Source: Chthoniobacterales bacterium
GTDB taxonomy: Bacteria; Verrucomicrobiota; Verrucomicrobiia; Chthoniobacterales; UBA10450
Assembly: GCA_035274845.1 (NCBI GenBank)
Contig: DATENU010000024.1
Span: 248,001 to 312,000 of the forward strand
Length of the DNA: 64,000 nucleotides
Reading direction: 5' to 3'
Positions within the stretch are counted from its first letter, which is position 1. The number at the start of each line of letters is the position of its first letter. Below are positions 1,772 to 28,031 of the stretch, in pieces. Made by a program: the position numbers and the translations under genes. The notes beneath the pieces were generated by a model. That model saw nothing but the letters and a program-made list of their open reading frames with translations. It did not search any database and was not told the DNA's origin.

Positions 1772-4663
1772 TTAATCCGAGAAAGCAAGGGTCTCCTCCT
1801 TCACGCCCGGCGGAGGCGGCATCGCAGGAACCGCGAGTCGCTCCTCGGACGAGAAATCCGGCACCCGCGGAGGAAACGCGATTTCGAACCCGGGGAGATT
1901 CAGCGAGAGATTCGGATTATAAAACGGATCGCGGATCAACCGCTTGGGCCAGACGCGCTGGACGTAGCCTGCTTCCTTGAGAAAGAGCGCCTGTTCTTCC
2001 AGCGTGCGCTGGTGCCCGCGCGAGGCCGATTCGTGATGAATGAGGTTCGTGTACGGCGTCCACACAACCCAATAGCCCCGTTCGGTCAGGCGCAGGCAAA
2101 AATCGATGTCATTGAACGTGACGCTAAGATTTTGCTCATCGAACCCGCCCAGTTCTTCGAAAACTGCTTTGCGGACCGCCATGCAGGCGCCGGTCACGGC
2201 CGAGCAATTTTGCCGGAGCCAGGCGCGATTGAAATATCCCGGATGTCCGCGGGGAATACGAGGGAACGCGTGCCCGGCCACTCCGCCGAGACCAAGAATA
2301 ACTCCGCCGTGTTGCAGGGTCCCGTCCGGATACCAGAGCCGCGCGCCGACTGCGCCGACTTCTTTCCGGGCGGCATGACTGACCATTTCCGTGAGCCATC
2401 CCGGCTCGTCGATTTCGGTGTCGTTGTTCAGCAAGACCAGGATGTCTCCCCGCGCCTCAGCCGCTGCGTGATTGTTGAGGCGGCTGTAGTTAAATGGACC
2501 GGCGTCGACTACGACTCGGACAAGGCCCTCGCTCTGAGCACGGCGGAAAAAGGCGAAAGTCCGTTCCTCGACCGATCCGTTATCGACGATGATAATTTCG
2601 TAGGGCTGGTAATCGGTCCGCGCCCGGATGCTTTCCACACAGCGCTCCAATAATTCCAGCCGGTCGCGCGTCGGGATGATGATGGAAGCGAGCGGCGCGG
2701 GCGTGGGCACCGCGTGAATGAAACGGTGGGACTCCGTGTTTTCAGGGCATGGCACCACGGTGCCGGGCATCTGGCGGCGTTTGCAGTAGTCCGCGATCGC
2801 GCGGCGCGCGGCTTCTTTCGCGTACGGTTTCGCGTCGGGAACGGCCGCCAGGCTGCCGGTGACCATTCGCCAGTGATAAAGAATGCGCGGAATATGCCGC
2901 ACCTGTTCGGGGCGCAGTCTCGCCACACAACGAAGCGCGAGATCGTAATCCTGCGAGCCTTCGAATCCCTCCCGGAACCCGCCGATCTCGCGCAAGAGAT
3001 CGGCGCGATACACCCCCAGGTGGTTAATGTAATTCTGGCCCAGAAAAAGTTCGGGATTCCAGTCCGGCTTGAAGAATGGATTCGAGCGGACGCCGTTCTC
3101 ATCGATTTTGTCTTCATCGGAGAAAACCAATCCGGCGTCCGGATGGCGATCGATCTCCAGCGCCACCGTGGCCAGGGCGTGCTCCGCCATTTCGTCGTCC
3201 TGATCGAGCAGGGCGCACCAGTCGCCCGTAGCGAGCCCGATAGCTGAATTCGAGCAGGCCGAGATATGACCATTGCGCTCGCGGAACGTGATCCTGATCC
3301 GGCTCTCTTCGCGGGCAACGGCCTCCAGGAAGGGGCGCACTCCGGTATCCGTCGAAGCGTCGTCCGCAATGCACAGCTCCCAATTCTCATAGATCTGCCG
3401 GCGGACGGAGTCGATGGCTGCTTTCAGAAACTGCATGGGCGGATTGTAGACCGGGAGGATCACGGAAATCCGAGGCTTCCGCGGGAGACGCCGCAAAGCG
3501 CGCCGGAGACGCACCCTGTCGATGTCGCCAAATTGGCGGAGCCATTCTTCGTAACCGGTTGCGATGCTGGGATCGTCCAAAGGCCTCGACCGACAAACGT
3601 CTCTGAACAGCTCGCCGAACCGGATCGCCAGCCGTTCCAGCCTAAAGTGGCGTCGAAAAGTCCGCAGGCCCGCGGCGCCGATCCGATTCAACAATTCGCC
3701 ATCCGTCACCAACCGTTCAATGGCGTGAGCGAGAGCCGTTGGATCGTTCGGGGGAACAAGAAGCCCATTGCTTCCGTCGCGCAGCCACTCGCTGATACCG
3801 CCGACGTCTGTGCTGACCACGCCTTTACCCAAGCCCATCGCTTCCAGGATCGTGATCGGCATGGTCTCGTCGCGCGATGGGCAGACCAGGACGTCGGCTT
3901 TCGCCAGGGCGGCGAGCGACGTCTCATGATCGCATTCGCCAGTAAACTCAATGTTATTCGTCCCGGCGGCAGCCTCTTTCACTTCGTCCGCAAACGGCTG
4001 TTCGAGAAAACGCCCGATTAGTTTGAAATTCGCTTGCGCCGCGACATCACCCGGAAGTTTACGGATCGCCTCGACGAGCACGTCCTGCCCTTTGCGCGGC
4101 TCGATGCTCGCGAGGGTGACGAACCTCGTCCCTTCCCCCTGCGGTTTCGGGGGAATCACGCCCAGGGGATCCGGAATTCCATAAGGCACCACCTCCACCG
4201 GGGTGTTCGTCAGGCCTTGGAAGACACGGGCGGTCCGTTCTGTTGGCGTCACCAGCAACGTCGCCAGATGCAGCATGGGCGCGATTTCGGGAATCTCTCG
4301 AATCAGGCGCACGGCCACGAGAGTCTCGTGCAGATACCAGATTACGGGCTTGTTCTCCGCCCGCGCGGCCCGGACCGCGTTCCAGCTGACAATCGTGTTG
4401 GCCACCACGACGTCGAATTCCGCGACCAACTCGCGGAGGCTTCCTTGTCCGGAATCATCCAGCATGCCAGGCTGAATCACGACCGGGACGTCGCCCAGGA
4501 GATCGGAAATCGGCCCTTTCTCTGGCGCGACAACCGTCAGTCTCCATCCGTCGGCATGGAGCGAACGAGCCAGGTGCAGCAGTTGGATCGGAGCGCCGGT
4601 CAGGGTCGTTTCATGGCTCACCAACAAAACCGACGGGCGCGAGCCTGACGTGTTACGGTTCAC
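1772..4663 (-). CDS. Multi-domain glycosyltransferase (GT4-GT2-GT2)
   Basis: A 963-residue protein with three fused sugar transferase modules. Residues 1 to about 370 are a GT-B fold GT4 domain ('LLVSHETTLTGAPIQLL' near the start, 'EPRKGQDVLVEAI', then 'SRDETMPITILEAMGLG'). Residues about 395-600 are a first GT-A/GT2 domain ('ISVILPVYNPP', 'DDASTD', 'LLDQDDE'). Residues about 655-870 are a second GT2 domain ('ASIIIPTRDR', 'LLNNDTEI'). No signal peptide or membrane segment is seen, so it probably acts at the cytoplasmic face on surface polysaccharide or a glycolipid. It starts at a GTG whose last bases form the TGA stop of the upstream gene (GTGA overlap), indicating coupled translation. Acceptor and sugar cannot be read from sequence. 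Confidence 0.9.
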   Translation of the reverse strand: MNRNTSGSRPSVLLVSHETTLTGAPIQLLHLARSLHADGWRLTVVAPEKGPISDLLGDVPVVIQPGMLDDSGQGSLRELVAEFDVVVANTIVSWNAVRAARAENKPVIWYLHETLVAVRLIREIPEIAPMLHLATLLVTPTERTARVFQGLTNTPVEVVPYGIPDPLGVIPPKPQGEGTRFVTLASIEPRKGQDVLVEAIRKLPGDVAAQANFKLIGRFLEQPFADEVKEAAAGTNNIEFTGECDHETSLAALAKADVLVCPSRDETMPITILEAMGLGKGVVSTDVGGISEWLRDGSNGLLVPPNDPTALAHAIERLVTDGELLNRIGAAGLRTFRRHFRLERLAIRFGELFRDVCRSRPLDDPSIATGYEEWLRQFGDIDRVRLRRALRRLPRKPRISVILPVYNPPMQFLKAAIDSVRRQIYENWELCIADDASTDTGVRPFLEAVAREESRIRITFRERNGHISACSNSAIGLATGDWCALLDQDDEMAEHALATVALEIDRHPDAGLVFSDEDKIDENGVRSNPFFKPDWNPELFLGQNYINHLGVYRADLLREIGGFREGFEGSQDYDLALRCVARLRPEQVRHIPRILYHWRMVTGSLAAVPDAKPYAKEAARRAIADYCKRRQMPGTVVPCPENTESHRFIHAVPTPAPLASIIIPTRDRLELLERCVESIRARTDYQPYEIIIVDNGSVEERTFAFFRRAQSEGLVRVVVDAGPFNYSRLNNHAAAEARGDILVLLNNDTEIDEPGWLTEMVSHAARKEVGAVGARLWYPDGTLQHGGVILGLGGVAGHAFPRIPRGHPGYFNRAWLRQNCSAVTGACMAVRKAVFEELGGFDEQNLSVTFNDIDFCLRLTERGYWVVWTPYTNLIHHESASRGHQRTLEEQALFLKEAGYVQRVWPKRLIRDPFYNPNLSLNLPGFEIAFPPRVPDFSSEERLAVPAMPPPPGVKEETLAFSD

Positions 4664-7600
4664 GTCTTGGTACGGATGACTTCGGCGACCAGCTCGCGGA
4701 AATCGGCGCCAAACCGTTCCTCCGAAAGTTTTTCTTCGAAGGTAGCGCGACCAGCCTCCCCGAGCTGGCGGGCCAATTCCGGCTTGCCGACGATTCGCTG
4801 GATCGCGTTCGCCAGGGCTTTGGGATCTTCGGGTTTAACGAGAATCGCGTCCTTCGCCTCGGTCAGCACTTCGCCAATTCCGCCGACCCTCGCTGAGATC
4901 ACCGCTTTGCCGAAGGACAACGCCTCGAGAATCGTCACCGGCAGGGCCTCGTCCCGCGATGAACAAACCAGGACGTGGCAACGTTGAATCGCCTCCAATG
5001 CGGCGGCGTGATCGCTTTCCGCCTCGATCACCACATTTGGCAGTCGAGCCGCTGACTTCTCGATGCGAGAGCCGAATTCCGAATCCATTACCCGACCGAT
5101 CAGGCGAAATTCCGTCACCTTTTGCACCCACTCGGGCAGGAGCGAAATGGCTTCCAGAAAGATATCCTGACCCTTCCGCGGTTCGATGCTGCCCAGGAGC
5201 AGAAAGCGGAGAATGTCCGGCGGTGATTCGTTCCATCCCCCATCACTCTCACCACGAACATCGGGAATTCCGTACGGCGAACAGACCACCGGTGATTCAG
5301 TACACGGCCGGTACACGCTGGCGGTCCGTTCCGTCGGCGCGAGGATAGCGTCGGCCATTGGCAAGGCCGAGCGCAGTTTCGCTTCTTCGCGCAGGTAATG
5401 TTCGCCCACCCGGGTTTCGTGCACCCACCAAATGACCGGCACGTTCGCCTTATGCGCGGCCCGGACCGCGCCCTCGGTCCGGACCGTATTCGTCAGGACA
5501 CAATCGAAATCGCGCGCGAATTTGCCGAACGATTCGTGTCCGGTTTCGCAGAGCGGATCAATGATCAGCGGAATACCCGCGTTCTCGTATTTTTCGCGCA
5601 ACGGCCCATCCGTCGGGGCCATCACCGTGACAAACATCCCGTTACGCGAGCACCACCGAGCGAGGTGCAGGAGCAACAGGGGCGCGCCGCTCAAGGTCAG
5701 GTCGTGCGAGACAAAAAGGAGATCGGGCGAAGCATCAATTGGTGCGGCGGGCTGGACGGCATGCATTCGGATCGGCGTCGGGGAATCGAGATGCAGCCAG
5801 TCCCGCATATTGTCCGTGAAATAGGGATCATGAGTGACGTAGCTGCCCCAGCGTTTCAGCAAAAATGTCGTCGCCTTGTCGGCCTTGCGGGGGCGACTTT
5901 TTGTTTCCGTCGCACCGATCGAGACGTGGCCGAGATGGCGCAAGGTGGCGTATGGCGTGTAAACACAGCGCAACCCGGCCTCGCGCACCTTGAAACACAG
6001 GTCAACGTCGGAATGCGCGATGGGCGTGTTGGCCGCATCGAAGCCGCCGACCTGGAAAAAATCGCTCCGCCGCATCGCCAGGCAGGCCGCCGAGAGCGCG
6101 GAGACGTCGCGCAGCGATTGCGCGAAATTGACATGCTCGGTCGAATCCGCCGCGCGCTGGTGAAAAGCCGTTCCGATCAATCCGCGGACGCCGGTGACCA
6201 GGCCGGCGTGTTGAATTTGGCCGGTCTCATAAACCAGCTTGGGCGCAACGGCTCCCACCTCAGGATTCTCGAGCGGCTCGATCAGGTTTTGAATCCAGTC
6301 GGGCTGGATGCTCTCGACATCGTCGTTGAAAAAAATCAACCGCGTCCCAGTGGCCGCTTCCGCGCCCAGATTGCATTTGTCGGAGAAGTTAAAGGGGGTG
6401 TCATAGGGCACAAAGCGAAAGATAACGTTCTCCCCTTCCAGGAACCGGAGCGGCTCGGCCAGCTTGGAGTTGGTCACCAGGATGATCTCGAGGTCGGGAT
6501 ATTTCGTTGCCTGCGGCAGATCGCGCAAACACGCCTGCGCGCGCATCGGCGAATCCGTCGGCACAATGATCGACACGCGCGGCCAGTTTGCGACCTTCAA
6601 GCGCGCTCGATTCGCGGTCGGGTATTCGATGATCTCAGCGGGAAGATTACGCCGGCGCATCGCTTCCCCTAAAGCGGCCAGATTGGTCTGGCGCGCTCCG
6701 GGTTTGCCCCCCGTCGACCCGGAAGCCGCGTGCTCGCGCCAGTGGTAAAGAACATGTGGAATGTGCCGAATCGATTTCGCGCGCTCCGTTGCCCGCAAGG
6801 CAAAGTCGTAGTCCTGCGACATATCGAATTCCTTCCGGAATCCGCCCAGCTCCAGGGCCAGGGAACGGCGGTAAGCGGTCAGATGCCCGATATACATCGA
6901 GGCCAGGAGAAGTTCAGGGCTCCACTCCGGCTTGAAAAAGGGCGCGTGCCGTTTTCCTTTCGCGCTCAGGCGGTCTTCGTCGCTGTAAAAAATATCGGCC
7001 TGTTCGAATTCCAGGGCAGCCCGCGCCAACTCAAACAAGGCAAAAGGGGCCAGGAGATCGTCATGGTCGACGCATGCCACCAGATCGCCGCTCGCCATTT
7101 GCAAAGCGCGGTTGGTGTTCTCCGCGATGCCGAGATTCTCCGTCAATCGCTCGATCCGAATCCGTGCCTCGCTTGCTTCCCAGCGCCGCAACGTCTCGAT
7201 TGTTTCCGGGCGATCCGAGCCGCCGTCGATCACGCATATCTCCCAATTGCCATAGGTTTGAGCTGCGACGGACTGGAACATCTCCTCCAGATAATTTGCC
7301 GGAGTGTTATGGACCGGGGTCAGCAGACTGATCTTGAGGCGCGTTGAAAATTCTCCCGAACTCTGGCGCTGCCGCTCGAGGGCCGTTTCGTCCGGCTCGT
7401 GTTCGCTGATCCAGGCCGCATATCGGTCGACCGGCTGGCGGGACGCGGCCGGCGCCGCAGCTTCTTTGGAATCCGGGACTGCCTTTGGCGGGCGAGAAAT
7501 CCGGAAACTGCGCGGAAGACGCTTGAGTTCGCGGACGACCCTTTCCCCAAAAGATTTGCGGACCTTCGGTCCACCCTGCACCTGAAAACATTTCCCTCCC

Positions 7601-17417: not shown

Positions 17418-18653
17418 TCACGGCACACAAAGATCGGGATGAGCGAAAATACTCGTGGGGCCGGCTTTGCGAACTCTCCACGAGACTTGGGTTCCTTTTG
17501 CGCCTTCAAGTTCGACGCTCTTAGCGGCAGGCACGTTGACTTCAATGGTTTGGCCTTTTGCGTATTCGAGGAGATTGGGGAATCCCGGTACTCCGTTGAC
17601 GGTGAAAACCGCCAGTGTAGCAATGACATAGCCACTCAATTCGGGATGCGAGCGAAAGGCTACGAGACGCCCCGTGATATCGGCCCAGTTTTCGATCACC
17701 TTCACATTGAACATGGATGTTTCCTGCTTTCCAGCCAGGTAATCCACCACCGCGCGAGCGATTGGCTGGCCGGTTTCTTGTTCGTAGTAGCTGTAAGCGG
17801 GAGACGGATTCACCTCGAAGCAATAGTATTCGTCGTCCGGGGTCCGCATAAGGTCAATGCCGCAGAATGGCAAACACAACGCCTGGGAAAGGCGGACGCA
17901 GCGCACCGCGATCTCAGTGGGCAATTCGATTTCGCGCATCTCCACTTGTTCGCCATCCCGGTGGGCGTAGCGGTAGTCCACCGCGGTCGTCGCAATCTCG
18001 GTGGGAAAGAGCCTATTGCCGACCACGTGGACGCGTATGTTCGTGCCCGTGATTCGCGCTTGAAATTGTGTCGGTAGCGCGCGCAATTTGGATAACTTTT
18101 CTGGATGGGAGGAATCAAATTCGCGGACGATCGATCGAATGGAACTTGTCGATTTATAAACCACGGGCCCATGCCGGCGGGCAAAGTCGACGGCCTCATC
18201 CGGCTCGTTCGTCACCAATGTCGGCGGGACGAGAAATCCAGCCCGTTGAATCCACTGAGCCTGATAGGGCTTGGATCCGTTCGATGCCATCGCTTCCGCC
18301 TTGTTCAGGACCCGGCACTCAGCCATCTCGATCCAATCGGCTAACACCGAATGGAGAAAAGCGGAGTGTTTCACTGCCTGCGGATCGGCCTGCCTCCGCC
18401 CGCGGGCGCGACTTTCGGGCAGGCCGCCGTAGTCGATCATACGGCTATAGACCCCGGTGAAATCCTTCAACGGCCACGCCGTCTCCTGCGTCCAAAGCGT
18501 CCCGCTCCACCGACCGCCTTGCTGTTCCAAGAGCAGATCGGAAAAGGCAGCCTCGCGTTGGTTAAAGACGACATGGCGAACTTCCGCCTCCGCCGCCGCG
18601 GCGAGCGCCATCGCCATCGGCGGCTCCGATGGGATGCCACAGAAAAGAATCAT
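17418..18653 (-). CDS. RimK/MvdD-type ATP-grasp ligase with extra C-terminal domain
   Basis: 411 residues. After a pre-ATP-grasp domain (1 to about 115), the nucleotide-binding part shows 'VVYKSTSSIRS' near residue 165 (the Lys that binds ATP), 'NIRVHVVGNRLFP' near 207, 'CGIDLMRTPDDEYY' near 265 and the metal-binding 'FEVNPSPAYSYYE' near 280, so all catalytic residues seem present. Such enzymes join a carboxylate to an amine or hydroxyl through an acyl phosphate and include the graspetide (microviridin) ligases. From about residue 312 a roughly 100-residue beta-rich domain of unknown type follows ('FNVKVIENWADITGRL...'). The start codon overlaps the stop of the degenerate ATP-grasp gene (ATGA). 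Third gene of a three-gene operon. Confidence 0.85.
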   Translation of the reverse strand: MILFCGIPSEPPMAMALAAAAEAEVRHVVFNQREAAFSDLLLEQQGGRWSGTLWTQETAWPLKDFTGVYSRMIDYGGLPESRARGRRQADPQAVKHSAFLHSVLADWIEMAECRVLNKAEAMASNGSKPYQAQWIQRAGFLVPPTLVTNEPDEAVDFARRHGPVVYKSTSSIRSIVREFDSSHPEKLSKLRALPTQFQARITGTNIRVHVVGNRLFPTEIATTAVDYRYAHRDGEQVEMREIELPTEIAVRCVRLSQALCLPFCGIDLMRTPDDEYYCFEVNPSPAYSYYEQETGQPIARAVVDYLAGKQETSMFNVKVIENWADITGRLVAFRSHPELSGYVIATLAVFTVNGVPGFPNLLEYAKGQTIEVNVPAAKSVELEGAKGTQVSWRVRKAGPTSIFAHPDLCVP

Positions 18654-19474
18654 GCGACTTCGGCCTGCACTGGGATTTCGTTCTCTGCGGCGCGCTCCAG
18701 AAGGTGGACGACGGCCGCGAGCTCAAGGGCATCCAGCATAGGCAAAATCTCAGCGTGGCGAAAAAGCCAGCGTGCGCCGTGAGGTTGGCCCGAGGTAAAG
18801 TGAAGACGGAGAAGCAGCGCGCGAGCCAGCCGCGCGAAGGTCCGACAGGCGGGGAGCAGCCCTGGCGGCAAGTTTCCACAGACTTCCTCTCCGGCGAGCA
18901 GCACCGAATGGGCGTTGGGCCCAGGTGGCTCGGCGACAACGGCAAACCCACGCGTTGCGAAGGAGCGCCCAACCGGCCCACTGGAACCGTCCGCTAAAGG
19001 CAGGCCATCTGCCGGAAAGCGACGGAGGTTGCTCGTCAGGCGCAACCGCGGGACCGGCAGCCCGGCCTCGGTAGCTAGTCTGAGCCAGCCCGTTGGAGTA
19101 CGATTCGGGGCGAAACCACGGGTTGTGACCGGATTGATGACAGGACAGGGAAATCCTTCTAACCAACTCTGGAGCAGCGCCGACATCTCCGCCCCTGCAT
19201 AATCCCGGTCAGCGTTTCCAAATTGCGTGAGGTTGAGGAAAGATAACCGATGCAAGACGACACCTACCTCTGTGTTGTCGATCAGTGTGCCGTCATGCAA
19301 CTGTACTCGGGAGCGGACGCCGTCCGTATCCAGACGGTGCACCCACCGCGGAGCGAGGACCAGTTCCTCCGCGGCGACGAGCCGGCATGCGCCACTTCCG
19401 TGACGGCGGGAGAGGACCGCTGCCACCGCCGCCGCCGACATGTCCGTGCGATGGGCCAGGATGAGAAACTTCAT
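18650..19474 (-). CDS. Degenerate ATP-grasp-like partner protein
   Basis: 274 residues. The N-terminal half resembles the pre-ATP-grasp domain of MvdD-like ligases: 'MKFLILAHRTDMSAAAV', 'NTEVGVVLHRLS' near 70, 'FPCPVINPVTTRGFAPN' near 110, 'AGLPVPRLRLTSN' near 138. The C-terminal part still aligns by pattern ('SVLLAGEEVCGNLPP' near 193, 'CRTFARLARALLLRLHF'), but where the active enzyme has Phe-Glu-Val-Asn-Pro this protein reads 'LFRHAEILP', so the metal-binding Glu and Asn are missing, and much of the ATP-binding sheet is shortened. I read it as a catalytically dead subunit that may bind substrate or pair with the intact ligase. It lies 21 bases after the protease gene and overlaps the ligase start. 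Confidence 0.65.
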   Translation of the reverse strand: MKFLILAHRTDMSAAAVAAVLSRRHGSGACRLVAAEELVLAPRWVHRLDTDGVRSRVQLHDGTLIDNTEVGVVLHRLSFLNLTQFGNADRDYAGAEMSALLQSWLEGFPCPVINPVTTRGFAPNRTPTGWLRLATEAGLPVPRLRLTSNLRRFPADGLPLADGSSGPVGRSFATRGFAVVAEPPGPNAHSVLLAGEEVCGNLPPGLLPACRTFARLARALLLRLHFTSGQPHGARWLFRHAEILPMLDALELAAVVHLLERAAENEIPVQAEVA

Positions 19475-19495
19475 CTTGAGCGCCTCGCCAGCAAC

Positions 19496-21472
19496 TTAGC
19501 GCTCCAAGACCTTTGTATCGTAAGAACGTTTGGCCTGCGCGGATCCCGCTTCCATCTCTTGCTGGGCCCGCGCAAGATCCTGCTCGTTGAGCAGAGCGCC
19601 TTGGGTAAGGTCTGGCCGCAACTCGCGCCCAATGAATGGCTGAGCCGTCGCGGCTTGTCCCCCTGTTCCCAGGGCAGCCTCGATCGCTTGGATACGCGTG
19701 AGCAGATTCGTCAGAACGGCCTCGTTGCCTCCGCTCAGGCTGCCAAGTTCGCCCAACTTTCCACCTTCCCCTTGCTTATCGAATCCTTTATCGAACGCCG
19801 CCGATTTGTCGGTTATTGGCTTTTCAAACTCCTTCACCGGCTTTTCGACGATGTCTTTCTCCTTGATTTCCTTGTGGTCCTTCTTCTCGAACTCTTTCCC
19901 CTCCTTATCCTTTATGATATCTTTGTGGGTATCTTTCTGATCCTTGATGATCTCCTTAATGTCTTTTTTCTCGAGCTCTTTCCCTTCCTTATCCTTGATG
20001 ATATCTTTGTGGGTGTCTTTCTGATCCTTGGTGATCTCCTTGATGACCTTGCACTTGACCCGGAGAGTTGCGGTGATGATAGGACCCGGCGCACCAATCG
20101 CACTGACGGCTACACAGGTATCCTGCCCGGAATACGATTTTGAGTTAGGGGTGGATGTGTTGCTGAAGTTGGTATTGTTCGCCGTCCCCGGGTAAGGATC
20201 GCCGGCGTCACCGCGGTTGACGTTGTGTTCAAGATCTTTTTTCGCGTCGGCCTGGATGAGCGCCACCTTGTAATGATTTTCATCGGTATTGCCGCCCTGG
20301 GAATCGTCGATGTGCCATATGAGGAGACCCCCGCCAGGCAGTGAGGCATCGAATCCGGTCCTCTCGCGATTCTCCACGAGGAAGTATTCGCTGCCGGAAG
20401 CTCCGTCCTTCCAGAGCCGGAAGACTTGATGGGAGGTCTTCACATCCTCGATGTTTTTTGCACCATTAGCCATCACGTTCATGACCGATGCCCAGCCTTG
20501 GTTGGCTTTGCACCACGCCGAGGGATGCACGGGCGTGTCTCCACCCCCGCCCCAGCTTCCGCCCGCCATAAGGCAGAAGTTGCCGATGCCTTCGGAAGTG
20601 TTGTCGGTATCGTAGAGATCAGGAAAGCCGAAGAGAAGGTGCCCTAGCTCATGGCAGCACACCCCTATCTTGCAATCTTCGGGCACTGTAAGATAAGCGA
20701 ATATCTTCGTTCCATCGGCTGTCCTCGCTCCCCCGTCTAACACCCACTTATGGGACCATATGTCCCCCGGATTACCGGTGACCTCTCCGCCGGGGCCGGC
20801 GTGAACGACAATGAAGGCATCGACGAACCCATTCCCGTCGTTGTCGAAGGGCGCAAAATTTACCGTTGGATCAGCGGCGGCGACGGCGTCACGCGCCATC
20901 GTACGCGCATTGGGCAGCACACCGCCCAGCCCCGCGGCGCCGTGCGCGTAAGCCGCGATGGTTTGTGGCATCGTAAAAGGCCCGACGACCTGCCCTTGGA
21001 TATCGATTATGCCATGGGTCACATCCTTGTAGTACTCCCGAACGCTCTTGGTCGGCATGACTCCCTGAGAGAAAAAGAGATCGTTGAAGTGCGCTGCGGA
21101 GTGGCTCATTTGCTTGTCTGGAAAGTTGACCAAAACTACAATCACGCGCACGACGCCGGCGAGGGGGGCGCGCTCTGCCGCTCCGCTCCGGATCGCCCGC
21201 AGCGGCGTGCCGAGCGGATACTCGTCGGGAGGAACGATCATACCATCATTCAACCCCGGTGCCTGGGGCTCTGCCGCGCGCACCAATCCGCGAATGACGC
21301 TTCGTTCAGTCGCTCGGAGCGTTTTCAGCTCTGCCTTGATCTTGTCTTGAAGGTCCGGATGGGCCGCTACCATGCAGCGTCGCCCGTCATCCGTCTGGCG
21401 TGCCGCTGCGTAAGTCCTCGCGACCTGCGCCGCGAGGATCTTTGCTGCTATATGGATGTCCTCGTTTTTCAT
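19496..21472 (-). CDS. M6-type metalloprotease with tandem charged repeats and conserved-looking C-terminal tail
   Basis: 658 residues. The catalytic domain (about 90-470) carries the zincin motif 'CCHELGHLLFGFPDLYD' with His274, Glu275 and His278, plus 'VRVIVVLVNFPDKQM' and 'SVREYYKDVTHG', as in immune-inhibitor-A-like M6 peptidases. No signal peptide is visible, unusual for this mostly secreted family. From about residue 475 the chain becomes Lys/Asp/Glu/Thr-rich, with two 28-residue direct repeats at 479-506 and 507-534, then a linker and a tail with 'QPFIGRELRPDLTQGAL' near 617. As the first gene of an operon with an intact and a degenerate ATP-grasp protein, its tail is a plausible substrate or recognition element for them. 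Confidence 0.85.
   Translation of the reverse strand: MKNEDIHIAAKILAAQVARTYAAARQTDDGRRCMVAAHPDLQDKIKAELKTLRATERSVIRGLVRAAEPQAPGLNDGMIVPPDEYPLGTPLRAIRSGAAERAPLAGVVRVIVVLVNFPDKQMSHSAAHFNDLFFSQGVMPTKSVREYYKDVTHGIIDIQGQVVGPFTMPQTIAAYAHGAAGLGGVLPNARTMARDAVAAADPTVNFAPFDNDGNGFVDAFIVVHAGPGGEVTGNPGDIWSHKWVLDGGARTADGTKIFAYLTVPEDCKIGVCCHELGHLLFGFPDLYDTDNTSEGIGNFCLMAGGSWGGGGDTPVHPSAWCKANQGWASVMNVMANGAKNIEDVKTSHQVFRLWKDGASGSEYFLVENRERTGFDASLPGGGLLIWHIDDSQGGNTDENHYKVALIQADAKKDLEHNVNRGDAGDPYPGTANNTNFSNTSTPNSKSYSGQDTCVAVSAIGAPGPIITATLRVKCKVIKEITKDQKDTHKDIIKDKEGKELEKKDIKEIIKDQKDTHKDIIKDKEGKEFEKKDHKEIKEKDIVEKPVKEFEKPITDKSAAFDKGFDKQGEGGKLGELGSLSGGNEAVLTNLLTRIQAIEAALGTGGQAATAQPFIGRELRPDLTQGALLNEQDLARAQQEMEAGSAQAKRSYDTKVLER
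19871..20038 (-). repeat. Two 84-bp in-frame tandem repeats in the protease gene
   Basis: Units 19955-20038 and 19871-19954 each encode 28 residues beginning 'EI(T/I)KDQKDTHKDIIKDK' and ending 'KKD(I/H)K'. The two protein copies differ at three positions (T/I, L/F, I/H) and the DNA copies mostly by silent changes, so the repeat seems under selection at the protein level. Confidence 0.9.
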
Positions 21473-24469: not shown

Positions 24470-24928
24470 GTGAAGCTGTTCCTCGCTATGGTTGCGGTCG
24501 TTTTCGCTGTCGCGACTAACGGACGCGCCCAGGATTTAATCCTCCCGAATCCCAAGCTAACGCCTGGCAGAGTCGCCCGCGCGGACAAGGAGCGAACCGG
24601 GGTGACCCCCGAGATGGAGCGCAAAGTCTTCGCGCGCTACCGCCTTCCCTGGTCCCGCCGGGCAGAATTCAAGATCGACCATCTCGTTCCGCTGGAACTG
24701 GGCGGAGCGGACACCATCGACAATCTTTGGCCGCAAAGTGTGCGCGCCAGACCGTATGGCGCGGATCGAAAAGAACTGCTGACAGAGGTTCTTCTCGCGC
24801 AGATCGCGAAACGGCAAATCACGCTCGCTCAGGCCCAGGAGGAAATTCGGCGGGATTGGATCGATGCCTTCATCGACCACGTCGGAATGGTTTACCTGAA
24901 GTCGGGTTTGATTCCCGCTACAGATTAG
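24470..24928 (+). CDS. Secreted HNH endonuclease-like protein
   Basis: 152 residues, GTG start with AAGG five bases before it, and a signal peptide ('FLAMVAVVFAVATNGRAQ'). The core 'KIDHLVPLELGGADTIDNLWPQ' near residue 65 has the Asp-His...Gly-Gly...Asn-Leu-Trp-Pro pattern of HNH nucleases, here in an extracytoplasmic protein. Short exported HNH-like proteins are common in soil bacteria; nutrient scavenging from DNA or an effector role are both possible. The stop codon overlaps the stop of the convergent gene. Confidence 0.7.
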   Translation: MKLFLAMVAVVFAVATNGRAQDLILPNPKLTPGRVARADKERTGVTPEMERKVFARYRLPWSRRAEFKIDHLVPLELGGADTIDNLWPQSVRARPYGADRKELLTEVLLAQIAKRQITLAQAQEEIRRDWIDAFIDHVGMVYLKSGLIPATD

Positions 24929-25482
24929 GAAGAGAATTTTCCGTAGACCGCGACGAGCGGGTACTTGCAACGATTGCTCGTCCAGTAATCGCTCACGAAA
25001 CCGGTCTTGGTGCGAATAACCACATGGCCGGCCGCACCGTGGCCAAAAACAAGGACAGCCCCGATTGGCGCCGCGTACTGATCGTGAATCGGCAGTTTCT
25101 TGAATCCGTAGTTTTGCACCAACTCGTCGCCAGCCTGCGTGGCGTAATTCGTCTTCGGATAGGAATTGATCACACCAGCGTCAAAGAGCGCCTGTTTGAC
25201 GTATTGCCAGCAACGCGATTTGGAGCGGGCGTTGGCTCTTTCCTGGGCGATCGTTGCGGCGCGGCGCAGCCGGGGATCAAGGCGTGAATCGACGGCCGCG
25301 TCGGGATGAACTACGGGCACATTCCAGTAGTGCCGCATGATCCGCGCGGAGGTTGGGGTGCCGTCGAAATTCCGATAATAGAAGTGAGATCTCGAGGGCG
25401 CCAGGCCCGCGGATTGCACTTCCATTGTGGTACTTATCAACGCGCAGCCAGTCAGACAAACAAACAAGAGAAAACGTTGCAC
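24925..25482 (-). CDS. Exported NlpC/P60-like (cysteine peptidase-type) protein, paralogue 1
   Basis: 185 residues from the GTG at 25482, chosen because it starts the signal peptide ('VQRFLLFVCLTGCALIS') and has GAGG just upstream. The longer open frame begins at 25593. The core has 'KSRCWQYVKQALFDAG' near residue 100 with the candidate nucleophile Cys, 'GDELVQNYGFKKLPI' near 128, and 'GHGAAGHVVIRT' near 158 with the candidate His, the usual Cys/His order of NlpC/P60 and CHAP hydrolases. A paralogue of nearly the same length lies at 26679-27233, and the two bracket the GST-like gene. Cell wall hydrolysis is likely but inferred. Confidence 0.7.
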   Translation of the reverse strand: MQRFLLFVCLTGCALISTTMEVQSAGLAPSRSHFYYRNFDGTPTSARIMRHYWNVPVVHPDAAVDSRLDPRLRRAATIAQERANARSKSRCWQYVKQALFDAGVINSYPKTNYATQAGDELVQNYGFKKLPIHDQYAAPIGAVLVFGHGAAGHVVIRTKTGFVSDYWTSNRCKYPLVAVYGKFSS

Positions 25483-25490
25483 GCGTCCTC

Positions 25491-25519
25491 TGTATGCAAA
25501 CGGCGTACCACTCTGACAA
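25491..25519 (-). promoter_or_regulatory. Candidate sigma-70 promoter of NlpC/P60-like paralogue 1
   Basis: On the minus strand TTGTCA, 17 bases, CATACA, ending eight bases before the GTG start. The predicted transcript would begin about at the start codon, i.e. nearly leaderless. The paralogue at 27233 has a similar TTGCGA-17-CATAGG arrangement at the same distance. Confidence 0.4.
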
Positions 25520-25646
25520 GCCTTTTTTCGACCGATTAATAAACTTTTTTCGGGGCTACGGTTTTTCGACGTTTTCTGTCTGAATTGCCACAAAAATGAT
25601 CAAAAACTGTAGCTTTGGCGCGCAGCTCTCCGCTTCCCGCGCTTGC

Positions 25647-26678: not shown

Positions 26679-27233
26679 TTAGCCCTTGGCGTAAACGCCA
26701 AGTAACGGGCGCTTCGACGGGGTCTTCGAAGTGAAGTCGCTCACGAAACCGTTCTTGGTCCGAATTTCGACATGGCCGGCAGCGCCGCGGGCCGTGTAAA
26801 CGAGGACCGAGCCGATCGGAGCCGCGAACGGGTCGCGGATCGGGAGTTTCTTGAAACCGTAATCGCGCACCAGCTCGTCGCCGGCTTGCTTCGCCAGGGC
26901 GGTCTTGGGGCGGGCGTCGACGGCGCCGGAGGCCAGGAGCGCTTCCTTGACGTAGTGCCAGCAGCGGGACTTGGAATGGGCATGGGCCCGTTCCTGGGCG
27001 ATCGTCGCGGCCCGCATCAATTTTGGGTTCACCCGCGGGTCGACCTTGGCGGTAGGATAGACGAGCTTCTTTTGCTGGTATTTATCGACAATAGGAGCCG
27101 AAACTGTCTTGCCGTTGCGATCTTTAAAGACGAACTGCGGTTCAAAATTGAGGTTGTCGGTCTTCGCCGCCGAGGCCGAAAAGACCAGGGCAAAAGCCGA
27201 AAAAACAGTGAGTAGGAGAGTAATTTTGCGCAC
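26679..27233 (-). CDS. Exported NlpC/P60-like protein, paralogue 2
   Basis: 184 residues from the GTG at 27233, which begins the signal peptide ('VRKITLLLTVFSAFALVF...') and follows GGGGGCG by eight bases; the open frame extends to 27395 but the extra part has no exported-protein character. 'HSKSRCWHYVKEALLASG' near residue 98 and 'ARGAAGHVEIRTKNGFVSDF' near 155 supply the candidate Cys and His. The second half is about 60 percent identical by eye to the protein at 24925-25482 ('RAATIAQERA', 'GDELV.(N/D)YGFKKLPI'), while the N-terminal parts differ, as expected for duplicated secreted hydrolases that have diverged in their targeting part. Confidence 0.7.
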   Translation of the reverse strand: MRKITLLLTVFSAFALVFSASAAKTDNLNFEPQFVFKDRNGKTVSAPIVDKYQQKKLVYPTAKVDPRVNPKLMRAATIAQERAHAHSKSRCWHYVKEALLASGAVDARPKTALAKQAGDELVRDYGFKKLPIRDPFAAPIGSVLVYTARGAAGHVEIRTKNGFVSDFTSKTPSKRPLLGVYAKG

Positions 27234-27365
27234 GGAAGCGCCCCCTATGCACTCGATTGGGCCTCCTCGCAAACGATTTTTTACATTTGTTTTCATAAAA
27301 AGGCCGACAGCGTTGCCGGATCCCCCGCTATCCAGCAGGTTGTGGTCCGGTAGTCGTTGCAATCT

Positions 27366-28031
27366 ATGCGTGGGAGTAGAAATTTCGTGGGACAAATCGG
27401 CCTGGCTTCCGTGGCTTTGGCTGCGGCCATTGTCCTAAGTGGCTGCGCCGCAACGCCCGAGCCGTGCGCGACCCCGGAAGCGGCCCAAAAGACCGTCTTT
27501 GTCGTCCACCACGGATCTCTGCACACCGGCCTGACTGTGAAACGGTCTGATATTCCCCGGGGCCATTGGCCGGCCAGCGCTGATTATGGTGACTCTAGAT
27601 ATATAGAGGTCGGGTGGGGCGACGAAGGCGGCTACCGCAAACCGCTCACCTCCGGCATCGCCATGAAAGCCCTGCTGGGCGATCGGCAGACGGTCCTGTT
27701 CGCCGAAGGGTTTAGCCAGCCGATCCGGCGGAAATACAGCGACCCAAAGTTCACCGTCCTGGCGGTGGGGCTGTCCGGACCAGGCCTGGCCAGCCTTTGC
27801 GACCACATCCAACAGACCTACGCCCTGAACGAAAAGGGCCAGCCAATCCGGTTGGGTGGAGGCTGGTATCGGGCCCGGGGAACCTATTCAGCTTTCAACA
27901 CCTGCAACACCTGGGTCGCGCGGGGCCTGCGCGAGGCTGGTTGTCCGATCGACGACACGCTCTGCCTGACCGCGGGCCAACTGCTCGGCCGGGTCCGGCC
28001 CTTTGCGCGCGAGATTTCAACCAGGCGGTAA
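27366..28031 (+). CDS. DUF2459 lipoprotein
   Basis: 221 residues from ATG 27366. The N-terminus has a lipoprotein signal ending in the lipobox 'LSGCAAT'. The rest matches the DUF2459 pattern: 'VFVVHHGSLHTGLTV' near 45, 'YIEVGWGDEGGYR' near 78, 'ALLGDRQTVLFAEG' near 102 and 'FNTCNTWVARGLREAGCPI' near 180. The family is conserved in Gram-negative bacteria and sometimes near urease genes; its function is unknown, although the conserved His and Cys suggest an NlpC-like papain fold. Monocistronic by spacing. Confidence 0.8.
   Translation: MRGSRNFVGQIGLASVALAAAIVLSGCAATPEPCATPEAAQKTVFVVHHGSLHTGLTVKRSDIPRGHWPASADYGDSRYIEVGWGDEGGYRKPLTSGIAMKALLGDRQTVLFAEGFSQPIRRKYSDPKFTVLAVGLSGPGLASLCDHIQQTYALNEKGQPIRLGGGWYRARGTYSAFNTCNTWVARGLREAGCPIDDTLCLTAGQLLGRVRPFAREISTRR

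Follow-up and report, generated by a model that had tools for sequence, protein, structure and literature searches.

The window analysed here, a stretch of 64,000 nucleotides from a Chthoniobacterales bacterium (assembly GCA_035274845.1, contig DATENU010000024.1, positions 248,001 to 312,000), carries three minus-strand genes at 17418-21472, designated A, B and C. They encode an M6-type metalloprotease with a charged repeat stalk and a conserved C-terminal tag (A), an ATP-grasp-like protein that has lost its metal ligands (B) and an ATP-grasp ligase (C). In 29 out of 29 distinct loci found with the ligase a tagged A gene immediately precedes B and C, and repeats of Lys, Glu and Asp are present in all A proteins. 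We suggest that the tag directs crosslinking of these repeats by C together with B, which on balance we consider probable. The wider view, that widely scattered bacteria naturally employ a graspetide-type ligase and a pseudo-enzyme to staple charged stalks on whole proteins with varied passengers, directed by a C-terminal follower tag, appears plausible but falls slightly short of probable.

Linkage of the tag to B and C

Genes A and B are separated by a gap of 21 bases, whereas B and C overlap by the four bases ATGA, and the coordinates confirm these junctions as given in the preliminary description. Gene A, which is present as a single copy in its own genome, encodes an M6 domain well above the family threshold (TIGR03296, 235.8 bits, cut-off 110.8) with an intact zinc site, and no obvious signal peptide was seen in the protein from the window, in agreement with the earlier view of a protease lacking such a signal. 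The two 28-residue repeats and the tail that had been claimed were also found; the repeats are followed by a tail with PFIGRELRPDLTQGALLNEQD, and the FIGRELRPDLTQGAL tail was confirmed.

The ligase search covered 84,980 species genomes and yielded 30 loci, 29 of them distinct, in Verrucomicrobiota, Acidobacteriota, Nitrospirota, Pseudomonadota, Chloroflexota, Gemmatimonadota, Bacteroidota, Actinomycetota and WOR-3. Alignment of the tag from 32 proteins resulted in the consensus ExRLxxLExAVxxLxHFIxxxLRPDLSxGALxxExD, in which I, R, P and E never vary and F, D, L and L hardly vary. Within the 30 carrier genomes the tag profile was detected at 32 places, all of them at the operon, with two genomes containing two adjacent tagged genes. 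A search of 1,372 genomes using only the tag gave strong matches in nine, five already known as carriers and four new (G559, G1202, G1305 and G1367 in our numbering); B and C adjoin the tag in all nine, including the four new carriers. A weak tag-like match in G490 (E 7e-4), located in a short reading frame that has neither B nor C, was left out of the counts. Linkage of tail homologues to ATP-grasp genes had been set as a test beforehand, and it was observed both in the ligase-found loci (29/29) and in the new tag-found carriers (4/4). Overall, tail, B and C recur together in more than 30 loci from many phyla, which is far beyond chance. No mention of the LRPDL motif was found in the literature searched.

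Within the phylum of the window the system is rare (two out of 388 genomes). A second verrucomicrobial genome contains an analogous operon, with a trypsin-like A protein, other Lys/Glu/Asp repeats and the tail PFISSELRPDLSAGAL; Opitutaceae bacterium EW11 (G143) belongs to the same class as the genome of the window. In the ligase tree the M6-type loci of four phyla form one clade (100/100), and those of the trypsin, astacin and passenger-free types are mixed with one another, a pattern which suggests horizontal spread and passenger exchange. Plasmid-borne spread was rejected, as a search of 72,556 plasmid records with a limit of E 1e-30 gave no relative of C, and a known anti-phage defence system was rejected since A, B and C had no PADLOC match.

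Ligase C, its partner B and domain D

Residues K128, K167, R207, D226, R228, D267, E280 and N282 of C are invariant in 28 out of 28 homologues, and the earlier assignment of the third gene to a catalytically complete ATP-grasp enzyme is thereby supported. For the 411-residue protein as a whole this assignment has to be restricted to residues 1-306, as residues 314-411 represent a separate oligonucleotide/oligosaccharide-binding (OB) fold, termed domain D. In comparison with solved structures the best relatives of C are the graspetide synthetases PsnB, CdnC, PruB, AMdnB and MdnB, and profile scores of 139 (PsnB), 112 (CdnC) and 109 bits (MdnC) were obtained, compared to 47-48 bits for RimK. Judged by these profiles, C is nearer to graspetide synthetases such as PsnB and MdnC than to RimK. 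It is very unlikely that C acts like RimK, adding amino acids such as Glu to the tail without forming crosslinks. A match of C to Pfam RimK (39.3 bits, cut-off 21) and a weak one to NCBIfam rimK_fam would agree with such an activity; nevertheless, both C and B are far nearer to the MvdD/PsnB graspetide synthetases, a resemblance that extends to the N-terminal domain, and the C-terminal residues of the A proteins show no common pattern. In one locus (L022:6001-6945; locus numbers are our own) the ligase frame is split by a single in-frame stop after 158 codons, which reflects either a sequencing error or decay.

Pfam and NCBIfam-type searches yielded no family-model match for B. The AlphaFold2 model of B (predicted local distance difference test, pLDDT, 89) reached Z scores of 19-21 over approximately 250 residues against AMdnB, MdnC, MdnB, PruB and PsnB, predicting a graspetide-synthetase fold in which the middle of the chain is shortened and the C-terminal part retained. 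Where C has E280 and N282, the B sequences mostly carry Ala or Cys and Ala, respectively, and no longer Glu or Asn. The proposal that the second protein is an ATP-grasp fold deprived of its metal ligands is thus upheld, with B modelled as a pseudo-enzyme. Distance matrices of B and C correlate at 0.85, compared to 0.53 for the tag and C; B appears to evolve together with C, which would fit an obligate B-C complex.

Domain D was found in every M6-type locus, encoded by a gene of its own elsewhere and as the last part of gene C in the window, and in none of the non-M6 loci. Its model (pLDDT 90) is an OB fold with best Z scores of about 9 against CusF/SilF, PriB and RecO and of 7.9 against TIMP-1. 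As OB folds are too common, no function can be derived from the fold; by its association D may be a partner or an inhibitor of the M6 protease.

Charged repeats, passengers and proposed crosslinking

The charged stretches consist overall of 28% Lys, 19.5% Glu, 9% Asp and 4% Ser plus Thr. Summed over the A proteins, 961 Lys residues stand against 981 Asp plus Glu (r = 0.99 per protein) and 140 Ser plus Thr, with strong periodicity. The repeat units vary by locus and include K-E/D-x triplets, KKxEPD, YKxEQ, DKRxxx and K-D/E-T. Repeated donor and acceptor residues of the graspetide kind are accordingly present, the donor type being Lys and Ser/Thr being rare, and the composition would fit Lys donors and Asp/Glu acceptors. 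A fixed i,i+4 spacing of Lys and Asp/Glu, as in corallotide, was considered and rejected: position +4 is enriched 1.67-fold, yet +1 and +7 are enriched as well, so that the enrichment reflects the three-residue periodicity of the K-E/D-x triplets, and other loci have KKxEPD or DKRxxx units.

According to the mechanism we propose, the substrate would be the C-terminal part of the carrier protein itself, and the operon would represent a graspetide-like protein-modification operon. The tag, a short helix followed by FIxxELRPDLxxGALxxE, would serve as a leader-like recognition sequence located C-terminal to the modified region, hence a 'follower', and would recruit ligase C, probably in complex with its dead paralogue B. 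C would then phosphorylate Asp/Glu side chains within the repeats and join them to Lys side chains, generating a series of isopeptide macrolactams and so turning the repeats into a charged, stapled stalk. This stalk would bear the N-terminal passenger as exchangeable cargo, in the window an active M6 protease together with its OB-fold partner D. Precedents exist for the single steps: Lys-Asp isopeptides are formed in the KxxxD repeats of corallotide (PMC13097080), partner-dependent graspetide synthetases forming a stable synthetase-partner complex have been described (PMC13097080), ThfB accepts an engineered C-terminal leader at about half the rate (PMC13003496), and whole proteins are modified by ThfB (PMC12291112). 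Modification of the tail by the ligase pair, as envisaged in the preliminary description, is the best explanation of the conserved linkage; the crosslinking chemistry is a proposal.

Precursors of ribosomally synthesized and post-translationally modified peptides (RiPPs) typically combine a variable core with a conserved recognition segment (PMC8939145), and the locus-to-locus variation of the repeats beside a constant tag resembles this. Graspetide leaders are normally located N-terminal to the core, and a classical order could be retained if the helix and FIxxELRPDL formed the leader and the core consisted of what follows, GALxxExD together with the last 10-50 residues (for instance GSAQAKRSYDTK), with the Lys/Glu/Asp repeats reduced to a linker. 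The extreme C-terminus is indeed conserved in the M6-type loci (AKRxYDxK), and several trypsin-type loci share QAADAKQAKDxKDxEK. We regard this order as unlikely: in L020, L023, L031, L034, L035, L038 and L041 the tag is located within 14-19 residues of the C-terminus with no shared donor/acceptor pattern behind it, and the repeats, by contrast, occur in all A proteins.

Several points also weigh against crosslinking of the repeats. C stays below the cut-offs of the curated graspetide-maturase models (TIGR04184, 88.1 with a cut-off of 475; TIGR04185, 87 with 425; TIGR04187, 132.9 with 350), and a comparison of the tag with precursors known from the PDB detected no sequence similarity, only coiled-coil matches to its helix part standing out. 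The spacing between Lys and Asp/Glu differs among loci and no single linkage pattern is conserved; any particular pattern is rated less likely than tag-directed crosslinking itself. Finally, equal amounts of Lys and Asp/Glu could simply represent a neutral polyampholyte linker, which would look alike, so that composition alone is no proof.

The N-terminal passengers of the A proteins are diverse. Counting the new tag-found carriers, M6 proteases are present in the window and in nine other cases, and ten passengers are trypsin-like with NAL1-type domains and GDSG; in addition, two subtilases and one each of astacin, M43, lectin-like and LysM passengers were observed. Active-site motifs are intact wherever a protease was recognised and complete. 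About ten of the 32 A proteins contain no recognisable domain and consist only of repeats and tag, which makes the repeats the constant part; since A proteins can do without the passenger but not without repeats and tag, it is probably in the repeats that the function resides. Control of the protease or release of a peptide, which had been offered as the general role, is weakened by the third or so of A proteins without a passenger and by those with LysM or lectin-like domains.

These data also bear on the view that the tail merely docks A to B and C, the true substrate being a different protein or peptide that the protease supplies or cuts, as in the account of branches 7 and 8 by Makarova et al. 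(PMC8939145). In favour of docking, proteases of unrelated classes, their active-site motifs intact, make up most of the passengers. However, the passenger-free, LysM and lectin-like proteins do not fit, and no gene beyond A to D and a few subtype genes is conserved, which makes docking quite unlikely. It appears highly improbable that the tail serves as a signal for export or surface anchoring which B and C attach to another molecule in the manner of a sorting tag. In favour of such a role, the tag is C-terminal and independent of the passenger, and the passenger types are usually extracellular (M6, astacin, LysM, lectin-like) although the proteins inspected have no obvious signal peptide. 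Against it, no conserved transporter or sortase-like gene was found in the locus flanks, and intramolecular links are what the ligase family is known to form.

Two loci contain more than one tagged gene. In L028:1637-5177 tandem tagged genes, encoding a subtilase and a lectin-like protein, precede one B-C pair; the lectin-like protein matches a putidacin-type lectin-like bacteriocin model (E 3.8e-26, under the cut-off). In L039 two divergent tagged genes (3509-4072, minus strand, and 4680-5162) encode a LysM protein and a passenger-free protein rich in Lys, Glu, Asp and His.

Further genes are restricted to subtypes of the locus (Table 1). Six trypsin-type loci contain, just upstream of A, a standalone copy of approximately 80 residues of the N-terminal (NAL1_N-like) domain of the protease itself, which from this association may be an inhibitor or chaperone of its protease. 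A radical S-adenosylmethionine (SAM) C-methyltransferase of RiPP maturation (TIGR03975, 628-631 bits, cut-off 282) is located downstream of C on the same strand in three loci and is limited to loci with Pro or Gln in the repeat units (KKxEPD, KKLEPEP, YKPEQ). Its presence lends independent support to a RiPP-like setting. Between C and this gene, L023:6930-7715 encodes a Tyr/Gln/Pro-rich repeat protein of 261 residues (QYTPSQYMQHETSQY...), which may be a second substrate. Elsewhere in the window, two paralogous proteins encoded about 1 kb apart (24925-25593 and 26679-27395, minus) have C-terminal parts resembling ARSKSRCWQYVKQALFDAG...GHVVIRTKTGFVSD in common.

Table 1: Positions of the operon features in the window and of subtype-specific genes in other loci.
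Feature	Position	Strand	Size or basis
Gene A: M6 metalloprotease passenger, Lys/Glu/Asp repeat stalk, putative C-terminal recognition tag	19496..21472	(-)	658 residues; TIGR03296 E 8.9e-70
M6 protease catalytic domain, A residues 112-387	20312..21139	(-)	TIGR03296 match
Zinc motif HELGHLLFGFPD of A, intact	20618-20653	(-)	HExxH zinc site
Lys/Glu/Asp-rich repeat region (putative modified core)	19760..20050	(-)	Charged stretch: 30 Lys versus 29 Asp + Glu
Two 84-bp repeats of A (28 residues, Lys/Asp/Glu/Thr)	19877-20050	(-)	2.1 copies, 88% matches
Conserved C-terminal tag: short helix (RIQAIEAAL), then QPFIGRELRPDLTQGALLNEQD	19568..19708	(-)	Aligned in 32 proteins; E 4e-15 in own genome
Gene B: pseudo-ATP-grasp partner, predicted graspetide-synthetase fold, shortened middle, metal ligands lost	18650..19474	(-)	274 residues; AlphaFold2 model, alignment
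Gene C: ATP-grasp ligase, graspetide-synthetase type, fused to domain D	17418..18653	(-)	411 residues
ATP-grasp portion of C, residues 1-306, K167/R207/D267/E280/N282 intact	17736..18653	(-)	Homologue alignment
Domain D: OB-fold module of ~95 residues (VIENWADITGRL...WRVRKAGPTSIFAHPD)	17418..17714	(-)	C residues 314-411; separate gene in other M6-type loci
NAL1_N-like standalone homologue	L019:3333-3626, L020:2626-2934, L023:3217-3462, L030:3117-3470, L032:3485-3817, L034:3249-3500
RiPP-maturation radical SAM C-methyltransferase	L023:7758-9656, L034:6906-8780, L065:2240-4546 (minus)		TIGR03975 E ~1e-189

Relation to known systems

The catalytic domain and zinc motif of the A protein in the window are those of M6 (immune inhibitor A-like) metalloproteases, as defined by TIGR03296. 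To our knowledge, typical members of this family have neither a charged stalk and tag nor B, C and D as neighbours.

ATP-grasp proteins encoded with peptidases of several unrelated families were described by Makarova et al. in 2022 as branches 7 and 8, the latter with a truncated inactive ATP-grasp protein (PMC8939145). No precursor could be predicted in that study; it was supposed to be encoded elsewhere, and the peptidases were thought to cut other cellular proteins (PMC8939145). The loci analysed here likewise combine a ligase with peptidases that belong to unrelated families and with an inactive, truncated ATP-grasp protein, and, matched by description, very probably belong to branch 8. 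They differ from the published account in that the peptidase carries the candidate substrate and that B keeps the C-terminal part of the fold while the middle is missing. The protease's own C-terminal tail thus represents a concrete candidate substrate for the peptidase-associated ATP-grasp branches, and, if this is true, the missing precursors of the protease-associated branch are fused to the proteases themselves. Diverse neighbouring protease families were also reported for RODEO graspetide group 32 by Carter et al. in 2026 (PMC13097080), which we liken to our loci by description; in that account, unlike ours, the proteases are possible maturation or resistance genes.

We infer that the system works like a graspetide cluster whose substrate is fused to a passenger. 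With the graspetides of MdnB/MdnC, PsnB, CdnC and CorB it shares the ligase fold, the catalytic residues, a separate recognition segment and repeated Lys and Asp/Glu, and it resembles corallotide with its repeated Lys-Asp isopeptides and long precursor (PMC13097080). In contrast to graspetides, the recognition segment follows the charged repeats, the substrate often forms one protein with a folded enzyme, a dedicated dead ATP-grasp paralogue accompanies the ligase throughout, and C falls short of the curated cut-offs. Most A proteins are longer than 400 residues, and instead of a small precursor with an N-terminal leader followed by a core, the conserved segment was found at the C-terminus; for these reasons and because of the model cut-offs we do not class the loci as standard graspetide clusters. 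If the proposed mechanism is true, graspetide chemistry would extend to whole enzymes with the ligase paired to a dedicated dead paralogue, and the tag would provide a portable C-terminal means of stapling Lys/Glu sequences onto proteins. The closest parallel to its position is found in ThfA/ThfB, where a recognition sequence placed behind the core guides a graspetide synthetase (PMC13003496). In that case, reported in 2026, a natural N-terminal leader was re-engineered, whereas in the loci described here the C-terminal leader layout would already be natural.

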